Source: Tyto alba (lineage: Eukaryota > Chordata > Aves > Strigiformes > Tytonidae). From it: DNA of 64,000 nt. The notes beneath the pieces were generated by a model. It saw nothing but the letters and a program-made list of their open reading frames with translations, made no database searches and had not been told where the DNA came from. Each line of letters opens with the position of its first letter. Position 1 is the stretch's first letter. This document shows, piece after piece, positions 39,116 to 42,988 of this stretch. A program made the translations under genes and the position numbers. The stretch spans positions 5,886,240-5,950,239 of the forward strand of contig NW_024881277.1 in NCBI RefSeq assembly GCF_018691265.1, written 5' to 3'.

Positions 39116-39321
39116 CTGCTGAGTGGCTCTGCCAGCTGTGGAGACTGAATTCTCCCCTGCAGGAGTCATTCTGCTCACCTGAAATCATTCTTGCTAATTG
39201 AGCTTATTCAGTAACCTGCTGGTATGTGATATTGCAGGTGGTTCTTGAAGAGTGTAGTTTGAGACTCCGAGATTGCTCTGTGGGCTGATGATTTAATATT
39301 TACTCTTGAAAAGGTGTTCTG

Positions 39322-39459
39322 CTGTTTGATGGCTCTTGCCCCTGCGCTGACCCACAGACACTTCTGTCTCTGCAGCGCTGCCAGTTGCTTTTGAGCACCC
39401 TTAGCACAGTCTGAAACTGTTTTCCAAGAGAAGCACAAGAGCTTGCTGAAAGAGGTTTG
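39322..39459 (+). pseudogene. AHCTF1: AHCTF1-like exon remnant 1, with in-frame stop
   Basis: From CTG at 39322 the frame gives LFDGSC, DPQTL, SLQRCQLL, LSTV, stop (39412-39414), NCF, EAQELAERGL. The order and spacing match ELYS. The TGA replaces a leucine codon expected between V and N. The base pair after the final TTG is CC where a GT donor would be expected (CCAAGAGT). Confidence 0.8.
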
Positions 39460-40230
39460 CCAAGAGTACTGCTAAATCTTTGGTGTGTTTTATTAAGATT
39501 AGGAATTCTGCTTGGGTTGGAGTTGTTGGAACAGGAGCTTTTGTTGCTTTTGAGGAGTGGAGGACAGGCAGCTGTAGCTGGGAGAAGGGGCTTGAATCTG
39601 GGAGCTTGGGGCTGACACTTAATGTGCCCTGAGTTGAGGGAAAGTGTTGTGGAGTTCCTGCGAGTGGGTCGGGGAGGCTCCATTCAGCAAGAAGCTCTGT
39701 GAGCAGCTGGGTTGAAATGACAGCACCTGAATGTGGTCATGCTGCAGAGTATTCTTTTTCATTCTTGGCCAGCAATTTATAATTGCCTGCAAATATTATA
39801 TTGAAAATTGATTAAAAACAGAAAGGAAGCGTAAAGGAGTAACTTGTAAATTAAGTTACTTGAGTTTCTATAGCCTTTTACTTTATCAATTGTCCGTGGC
39901 ATGTTGAGGGAAAAAAACAATATGCCTTTGCTATAGTAAAAATCTCTGCTATGTGAAAAAGAAATGTCTTATTCATGAGTATATTTAATAGTTCAGGCTT
40001 TTCTGTTTTATTTTTATTTTAACCTTTAGTGAATCTGGTTCTTTGTAGGGCTGCTTTTTCTTTTGGTGCTGATGGTAGATTTTGTCGTCAAAGAAGAAAG
40101 TGATGTAGTGAGAAATGGGAGGACAGATTTCTACCCTCTTATTTTTATAATTTCTAATTAGGGTGTTGAAGGGAGTTTTGTCAAAATGAAAGGAATTGCA
40201 TAAGAAAAATCATCTTCTGCCTTTTTTCAG

Positions 40231-40335
40231 GTTTCAGAGATGTGACAACTCAGCAGGGGGTAACTGGCCTCATTTCTTTGTCTGCACAAGTGGTGATCTG
40301 GTTCTGTCGGCCCAGTCTCCTTCCAGAGGGTTTAG
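40231..40335 (+). pseudogene. AHCTF1: AHCTF1-like exon remnant 2
   Basis: It is bounded by the acceptor CTTTTTTCAG and the strong donor TTTAGGTGAGCC. The readable frame gives DVTTQQ, then GLISLSAQVVIWFCRP and SLLPEGL, one base short of a codon, which pairs with the AT that begins remnant 3 to give the expected aspartate. Confidence 0.8.
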
Positions 40336-41077
40336 GTGAGCCTAAACTGGAATGCATTTGTCACCGGGAGATTCTCCAGTAAGTGATTCCTACGAACACC
40401 TGCTCAGCCCTGGTTTTGTACATGTTTCACCCAGAACAAGTTGTGTTGGCTCGGTGACAGCGTGTGCTGAAGTTCTGTTGGTGAAGCGGAGACTCTACTG
40501 GGTTTTCAAATAGACAGTGTGGAATATTGCAAGCAGTTTCTTTTCTGGATGTTTTTTAGAAAGAGAAGTATGACTCAGACTTCAAGGAGTTGCTTGTGTC
40601 CACAGCTTGAAATAGTTGGGATTTTAAACATATCGCTATTAAACGACAAGTACTTTTTCCAGTAAAAATATTACCTGCGTGTTTGGAACTTTTTATTTAT
40701 TGCTTGAGGAAAAAATACACCTTGGAAATACTTCTTGATTTGGCTGGATTATAAATTCTCTTTTCGGCCTTAATTGTCTTATAAATGCTCACGTGACATG
40801 TTTAAAAACCCATTCCTTTGAGATATTTTTTTTTTGGTAGTGAGCTTCAGTTTACACCAAATGTTCTGAACGCTCCATCAACTTGAACTGGCACTTGAGA
40901 CTCTTGTGTCTTACATCTCTTTTAGCAAAGGCAGAAACAGGACTGGCTTCTGTCAGAGTTGGAGTCTTGCCTCTGCTTGATGCTTCGCTTGTACAATCTT
41001 CTGTCCTTCTAGTCAAAGATTTTAGTTTAAAAATAGGATGTTACCTCTTTAATTTGCATTTGCTTTCTTGCCTGTAG

Positions 41078-41171
41078 ATGACCATATGCATTTGTGTAGA
41101 CCTTTCTACAATTATCCTCTGATTCAGAGCTGCTGTACGGGTCTTCAACAGAAACTTGTGCGTTTACCAAG
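41078..41171 (+). pseudogene. AHCTF1: AHCTF1-like exon remnant 3
   Basis: It follows the acceptor TGCTTTCTTGCCTGTAG and encodes DHMHLCRPFYNYPLIQS, then a QQKLVRL segment corresponding to the arginine/lysine-rich end of that ELYS exon. No GT donor is present at the expected end (CCAAGTTCAG). Confidence 0.75.
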
Positions 41172-42697
41172 TTCAGCCTTACAGGAAAATGCTAGAACAC
41201 TTCCAAGGCAAATTCAGAAGTGGAAGGGAATGGCTTTTACAGCGACAGTTGTGTTTGCTACACTGAATGCATTTGCCAGGAGTACTCTTGAATGCAGCGG
41301 TGCCTGTGTTCTCTTGAGCACAGAGGTTACTTCCCTGTGCTGCAAATTTATATATACCTCTGCTGGGTATTCTTTGTTGGTGTCCTCATTTTTTTGTGGG
41401 GTACGTCATTCCTTGGCTAATCTGTATAATTTGTTACTACTGAAAAAGATCATGTGCTTAGGACAGGACCAGTGATCTCCAGTTCAGCAAAGCACGGAGT
41501 TCACAGAACAATTATTTTGGACGTAGAAGAAAGCATGTGATGTTTTTTTTTAATCTCTTTCATTGTCTAATAATGGATGGTCATAACTGCGTTGGTCTAA
41601 ATCTCCTCCTCACAAGTGCATTTGTGCAATTTAATAAGACAGTTACACACCGTTGGCACAGCAAACACTCTACTGGCTGCTGGCTAAAAGTCACTCCCGA
41701 ATGTCAACTCTCTTGCCTGGACTGGCTTCCCAGCATACAGGGGATATAGCTTGGGTTAGGTGATCATGGGTTTTTCTCTGGAAATGGTACTGAAAATGAA
41801 ATAAAGGCCTAAAGAAGGCCTAAATAAAGGCTCTGACCCTGTGAACAAGATGCTACAAGAGGAGTTCAGGTGGAAGCTGCAGTGTAGGAGGTGCTGACTT
41901 TCAAGTTCATCTTACTTATCTTACTCCTCAAGGAACTGACCTCCAGGCGCCTGTGTTCCTCAGCAGCACACAGCCTCTAGTGTGCTGCTTCTGCTTTTTG
42001 TCACTGGGAAATTAAAGGGTAGCGTCGCAGTCAGCAGAAGACTGATGGACTTTTGAAGAAAGTACTTTTTAAAGGTTCAGCCATCTGTGATTGTAACGGC
42101 ACATGTATAGAAACAGAAATGCTGCTTAAGATGATACAGCTTACCTGCATGCTGAGCTCTCTGAAAAGAACTCTTTTTCAGTAACAGAAGTGAGATGCTG
42201 AGAACAAAATCTGAAATGCTCATTACATTGTCTCTCAGCTGTGTATTGGAACACTCCAGTTTGAGGCTCTAGATTTGTGATAAAGACTAGTCCTGGTATT
42301 TGACTACTGTCACGTTTCCTCTGTTAGACAGTATAAGAGTGGTTATTTTTGGCACTTAAAAATCTTTGTTTACGCTTCCTTTCTATTACAAGTAACACAA
42401 CAAAAAGGAAACCTGAAAACTAAAAGGTCATTGCAACTTTTCCCGTAACAGGAGAGCTTTTAGGGTTTCTCTTTTGAACTCCTTGAATAATTCAGTATGA
42501 ACTAATGAACATCTTTCATCTGGCTCAGAAATGTTTCAGGTGCATGTCAAGTCATGACCGTGCCTTTGTATGGTTGGTACTTTCTTTGAGTCATGGGAGC
42601 TTATTTTTTTTTTGTTTTGACTGGAGGAAATCTTTTACACAGAGAGTCTGGAATCAGTGTTTTACTGTGTCCAAATCCCTGCTCCCTTTTGTTCCAG

Positions 42698-42820
42698 AGG
42701 AAAATGGGATTCTGGCTGCTTGATGATTGATGGAATGGTTTCCCAGTTCGGAGACCGAGGAGAGGAGTTGTGGAGGAGAGATGAAGGAGGAACTGGGAAA
42801 TACCCGCCTGCTAGTTGATA
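42698..42820 (+). pseudogene. AHCTF1: AHCTF1-like exon remnant 4, broken at its end
   Basis: After TCCCTTTTGTTCCAG the frame reads GKW, CLMIDGMVSQFGDR, ELWRRDEGGTGKYPPAS. This is the best-conserved part. The two residues expected next are lost, a TGA follows, and the donor position reads GG where GT would be expected. Confidence 0.85.
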
Positions 42821-42931
42821 TGGGAGTGTTTATGTTCACTGAAAACAGTAGCAACAACACCACCCCCCAAACCCCACCATATTTTATGATTTATAAAAGG
42901 AGATTAAAAAACTGTTAATTTTTCATTCCAG

Positions 42932-42988
42932 GCCGTGCTGGATCTCTGTTTGCTAGAAAGCACTGAAGAAAGCTACAGCCATGCAATT
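42932..42988 (+). pseudogene. AHCTF1: AHCTF1-like exon remnant 5
   Basis: Nineteen codons after the acceptor TTTTTCATTCCAG encode AVLDLCLLES and EESYSHAI, which continue the ELYS order. A GT follows at 42989-42990. The next ELYS exon was not found. Confidence 0.75.

Follow-up and report, generated by a model that had tools for sequence, protein, structure and literature searches.

Results

The window, by which we mean the whole 64-kb stretch of Tyto alba DNA that was analysed, contains four olfactory receptors, all of which match the Pfam olfactory-receptor family. The original prediction placed them in an avian OR14 cluster, a subfamily label that is putative here. The receptor at 16.1-17.1 kb on the plus strand has its best named relatives among OR5AP2/11A1/1013-like receptors, and its closest named bird relatives (82-88%) are spread over several orders. 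The other three receptors are of another type: an intact one at 23.9-24.8 kb on the minus strand, an intact one at 33513-34448 on the plus strand, and a broken one at 57273-58200 on the minus strand, which is the inverted duplicate of the receptor at 33513-34448. These last two lie in the left arm (31405..35487, plus) and the right arm (56234..61144, minus) of an inverted duplication, which align in two pieces at 91.8% and 90.6%. The window also holds a direct duplication of about 4.1 kb (1-4144 and 26729-30939; two pieces, 94% and 91% identical) and a degenerate long tandem array at 21282-22942 with periods of 20, 40, 121 and others.

Between the arms of the inverted duplication lies a copy of part of AHCTF1, the gene of the protein ELYS, and searching the 64 kb on both strands with bird ELYS found no second copy of this piece in the arms. 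The copy is surrounded by a block (36000..46310, edges not sharp, right end about 45.5-46.3 kb) with composition and CpG content unlike the receptor flanks. It is CpG-rich at 36.0-37.2 kb and then mostly has a GC of 0.31-0.49, and as far as about 45.5 kb its CpG o/e mostly exceeds that of the receptor flanks. The CpG-rich part (36001-37250) reaches a GC of 0.85 and a CpG o/e of 0.93, gave no Pfam match in six frames, and is possibly a promoter copied or inserted along with the block. A minisatellite with a 37-base unit in 18.5 copies occupies 37190-37868. One repeat family, which we take to be LTR-like, occurs near both block edges (35936-36065 and 46311-46790) and again at 62814-63296 and 55812-55894, with pairs 63-75% identical. 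No DNA relatives were confirmed in genome and viral contig collections.

According to the original prediction, made without a search, five segments of the middle of ELYS lie here in gene order, and both PDB and bird ELYS searches bore this out. With the five translated segments, the PDB search gave two matches at E up to 1, both of them ELYS (Xenopus, E 2.4e-47; human, E 8.6e-47), and no other family. The same was seen in a check free of exon choice: when 36.0-51.0 kb was read through in the three forward frames, each gave ELYS as its sole PDB match (2/2). In Pfam, the six frames of 35.5-50.5 kb gave a single match, again to ELYS, at 22.8 bits and below the cut-off of 28.8. When king vulture, loon and chicken ELYS were compared with both strands of the 64 kb, six plus-strand exons were found in order at 38-84 bits each. 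ELYS matches elsewhere in the 64 kb, on either strand, were all <=28.1 bits and not above shuffled noise: in 20 order-1 Markov windows searched at the same settings the best scores were 25.4-33.1 bits (top 33.1, others <=29.6), and at the less sensitive default settings they were <=29.6 bits. All ELYS candidates matched (269/269), and Pfam PF13934 (ELYS) was present on 120/120 among the matches listed.

The first exon (39314..39454, plus strand like all six) corresponds to ELYS about 603-649 and has its acceptor AG and the donor GTTTGC, with an in-frame TGA at 39412-39414. In the second exon (40231..40335, about 649-684) both the acceptor and donor dinucleotides are intact (GTGAGC), and in the third (41078..41171, about 684-715) the donor is lost, CAAG being followed by TTCAGC. 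The fourth exon (42698..42821, about 715-756) has a TGA at 42816-42818 and a lost donor (ATAT followed by GGGAGT), and over its 41 residues it is 90% identical to king vulture ELYS and 80% to chicken ELYS. The fifth (42932..42988, about 757-775, donor GTATCC) is the weakest, with 38-40 bits against the three bird proteins. The sixth (43741..43885, about 776-824, donor GTCTGT) falls into two parts in different reading frames, the frame changing near 43789. The extent first proposed, 39316..42988 with five exons, was right about those five and overlooked the sixth. When the six exons are spliced together and a single X is set at the frameshift, they fill 222 columns and align gapless to bird ELYS 603-824.

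Both in-frame stops, TGA 39412 in exon 1 and TGA 42816 in exon 4, occupy positions that are Leu in the bird consensus. They had been called from the letters as an in-frame stop and as the TGA closing exon 4, and each is in frame with ELYS. A frameshift within exon 1 was considered and ruled out, since the frame continues past the TGA and can be aligned with ELYS. The acceptor AG is present in 6/6 exons and the donor GT in 4/6 (exons 1, 2, 5 and 6); of the three lost donors claimed, without naming them, the losses at exons 3 and 4 stand, making two and not three. The unusual donor GTATCC of exon 5 reads on as 'VSF' also in P0124, P0127, P0129 and P0130, so that it is probably native. Having no more than six exons, along with two stops, a frameshift and two donors lost, this is not a working ELYS/AHCTF1, and the disabling changes are those of an unprocessed pseudogene.

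To examine the introns, intron-only stretches of the window were compared with five read-through sequences, the comparison sequences being ORFs and bird proteins that run from ELYS exons into introns (E-values are for the five-sequence database). The end of intron 3 (42612..42697, plus) matched read-through ORF P0131 (E 2e-7) and, more weakly, P0129; intron 4 (42822..42931, plus) matched P0129 (E 7e-6) and P0131 (E 2e-4); and the start of intron 5 (42989..43140, plus) matched P0124 (E 1e-12), P0130 (E 2e-8) and P0127 (E 9e-5). By position, introns 1 and 2 are there as well, the homology support coming from parts of introns 3, 4 and 5. Because these parts match other ELYS DNA, the copy is genomic and not retrotransposed: parental introns are retained, as in an unprocessed pseudogene, and not absent, as in a processed one, which rules out a retrocopy. 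Exon order, introns and disabling changes together uphold the earlier description of an unprocessed, decayed and partial AHCTF1 copy.

Measured on the 222 columns, identity of the copy is 70-76% (median 74%) with 31 full-length bird ELYS proteins and 72% with three turtle ELYS; the 31 bird proteins are 84-98% identical among themselves (median 92%, 465 pairs). Across 37 full ELYS proteins (31 birds, 3 turtles, 3 mammals), 97 columns never vary, and 19 of these are altered in the copy. In other ELYS-like proteins the same count was 0/97 in five proteins named ELYS-like, 0/75 in a white-eye piece, 0/40 in a flamingo piece, 2/97 in Porphyrio_like, 6/97 in Morus_like, 2/47 and 2/56 in two pigeon copies, 8/63 in a cormorant copy, and 13/71, 32/82 and 13/59 in cuckoo copies, so the Tyto alba copy is not unique in its decay or fast change. 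Relative to the bird consensus, 52/221 positions have changed (0.17-0.27 per exon), with exon 4 apparently somewhat better conserved (7/41 changed). A neutral simulation with the same number of changes (2000 runs) gave 2.97 (sd 1.60) expected stops against 2 observed, and 0.129 substitutions per site at the observed change count; the simulation is rough, because its starting sequence combines a protein consensus with codons taken from the copy, and because stops are included in its tally of changes.

In two phylogenetic trees with hand-chosen rows, the copy fell within Neoaves. In each it stood apart from the palaeognaths, fowl and goose included, with support 90/81 in the first (56 rows from 54/130 ELYS proteins fetched) and 97/80 in the second (64 rows from 62/130 ELYS proteins), the bootstrap being unsettled in both. 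By these trees the copy originated inside birds and apparently within Neoaves, where its branch is long and no sister has support in either tree. A tree of few rows had paired it with the cormorant ELYS-like protein (59/84); with more rows this pair was gone, the cormorant copy joining the gannet copy (90/71), and the kinship was dropped. In a topology test, clades of the copy and the cuckoo copies, without and with that of the cormorant, were not rejected (p-AU 0.256 and 0.414), and the larger tree gave no support for such a clade.

ELYS, a protein of the nuclear pore that binds chromatin, is usually regarded as single-copy. Ten of 136 similar-length candidates matched the six-exon composite, and the partial proteins named ELYS-like among the composite matches came from cormorant, common cuckoo (two), malkoha and flamingo, with an unnamed protein from a white-eye in addition. 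At 89% identity with king vulture ELYS, the white-eye and flamingo pieces could simply be parts of the true gene. The gannet Morus bassanus has P0040, 75% identical to its own ELYS P0047 over 1352 columns (198/222 in the segment), and the takahe Porphyrio has P0050, at 84-87% against P0028 (208/222 in the segment). In P0002 of the speckled pigeon Columba the middle segment is present twice (97/108 alike). The buzzard and curlew pairs are at 84-85% over their length, yet within the segment they are identical at 220/222 and 221/222 positions, as are three records of king penguin at 221-222/222; haplotigs, isoforms or gene models that differ may account for these cases. Some of the extra neoavian ELYS-like proteins (P0040, P0050, P0002, P0123-P0125, P0127) are on small contigs, for example of 272,702 and 508,192 bases. 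Among predicted ELYS-like proteins of penguins, segments of ELYS recur within one model: Aptenodytes P0036 has about 980-1250 three times, and in Spheniscus P0034 the stretch 99-322 is repeated, which may reflect tandem exon duplication or errors of the models. Among the literature matches listed, titles and abstract openings mentioned no AHCTF1 duplicates in birds.

Discussion

We consider it most probable (about 0.9) that the locus holds a dead partial piece of AHCTF1, six exons corresponding to ELYS 603-824 with their introns, which was copied into the spacer between olfactory receptors and has since been drifting neutrally, making no ELYS protein and most likely having no function. A genomic stretch from the middle of a bird AHCTF1 would have been copied without the rest of the gene and would have landed in the spacer between receptor duplicates, the likely route being insertion or template switching in the course of a segmental duplication, in a receptor cluster rich in repeats. 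Neutral drift would have followed the insertion, and the number of stops and the spread of the changes fit this, which makes neutral decay a fitting explanation and not a proved one. Neutral rates are 2-3e-9 per site and year, and with 0.129 substitutions per site these would place the age of the copy, as a rough estimate, in the order of 40-65 million years, that is, tens of millions.

The copy is a pseudogene of an ordinary kind in an unusual place. Its introns, gene order, partial extent, stops, frameshift and lost splice sites are like those of unprocessed (duplicated) partial pseudogenes formed by segmental duplication, and it does not differ from them in kind; only the nuclear-pore parent and the site in a receptor spacer are unusual. 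It is like ELYS/AHCTF1 proper in residues 603-824, exon order and parts of introns 3-5, and unlike it in that all other exons are missing, the frame is broken and two donors are lost. The extra or partial ELYS-like proteins of other birds (Phalacrocorax P0123, Cuculus P0124/P0125, Phaenicophaeus P0127, Morus P0040, Porphyrio P0050 and Columba P0002) resemble it in being diverged and overlapping the same middle of ELYS; in contrast to it they are annotated as protein-coding, and the trees and the topology test brought out no common origin with the copy. An AHCTF1 copy among odorant receptors had been called unexpected, and this is only partly right: several birds have extra or partial ELYS-like proteins, and bird olfactory receptor repertoires are rich in pseudogenes, as judged from the counts quoted from PMC2758906 (chicken 111/479, zebra finch 221/553).

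The piece could instead be the remnant of a bigger ELYS-like paralogue that formerly worked, a duplicate of AHCTF1 that arose long ago in Neoaves, lost its other exons and was not dead on arrival. Diverged ELYS-like proteins far longer than the fragment do exist, such as Morus bassanus P0040 and Porphyrio P0050, and the pairing with the cormorant in the first, few-row tree came with an identical residue at 4/5 conserved columns changed in both. However, that link disappeared when the cormorant copy joined the gannet's, the shared changes recur elsewhere (two turtles 3/3, a cuckoo copy 3/11, a hawk 2/3), the number of stops agrees with drift from the outset, and flanking ELYS exons were not found in the 64 kb; we therefore regard such a remnant as quite unlikely. 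The locus may also be transcribed as a non-coding RNA or have a function that needs no ELYS frame, for which the CpG-rich 36.0-37.2 kb lies upstream within the block. With nothing from Rfam in the 64-kb window at gathering score, nothing but the sub-threshold ELYS match from Pfam in the six frames of 35.5-50.5 kb, and changes spread evenly across the exons, a role of this kind is very improbable.

AHCTF1 of human lies at 1q44, presumably in the same band as olfactory receptor genes, and a once-shared neighbourhood of AHCTF1 and a receptor cluster would explain the locus by ancestral linkage. The human neighbourhood is what speaks for it, and the position of the copy inside Neoaves makes it too young for a linkage shared with mammals. 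In addition, a protein identical to the 16.1 kb receptor is on a contig of 11,383,789 bases, and in Gallus, Gavia and Struthio the contigs with ELYS measure 111-148 Mb (those of other birds are smaller), and by these separate sizes AHCTF1 and the receptor cluster are likely on different chromosomes. We find ancestral linkage highly improbable. The least probable explanation is a misjoined piece of another locus. Our reading is taken from the assembly itself, which leaves room for such an artefact, but the exons are disrupted and differ by 24-30% from every one of the 31 bird ELYS, meaning that the piece is not from the working AHCTF1 gene, and the window has no N; a misjoin with some other dead copy is possible.

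The dead six-exon piece is thus, as we read it, one more dead gene fragment, and a marker for how outside DNA enters bird receptor clusters. Automatic annotation labels such fragments 'protein ELYS-like'. It is conceivable, though on the whole doubtful, that AHCTF1 has duplicated repeatedly in Neoaves and that an old lineage of ELYS-like paralogues sent copies to other chromosomes, including those with olfactory receptor clusters; the Tyto alba copy would then be a dead offshoot, with longer and perhaps working copies kept in some birds. That several neoavian assemblies have a second, diverged ELYS-like protein may outweigh the pseudogene itself in value. If AHCTF1, a founder gene of the nuclear pore, was duplicated over and over, it would deserve a proper survey.
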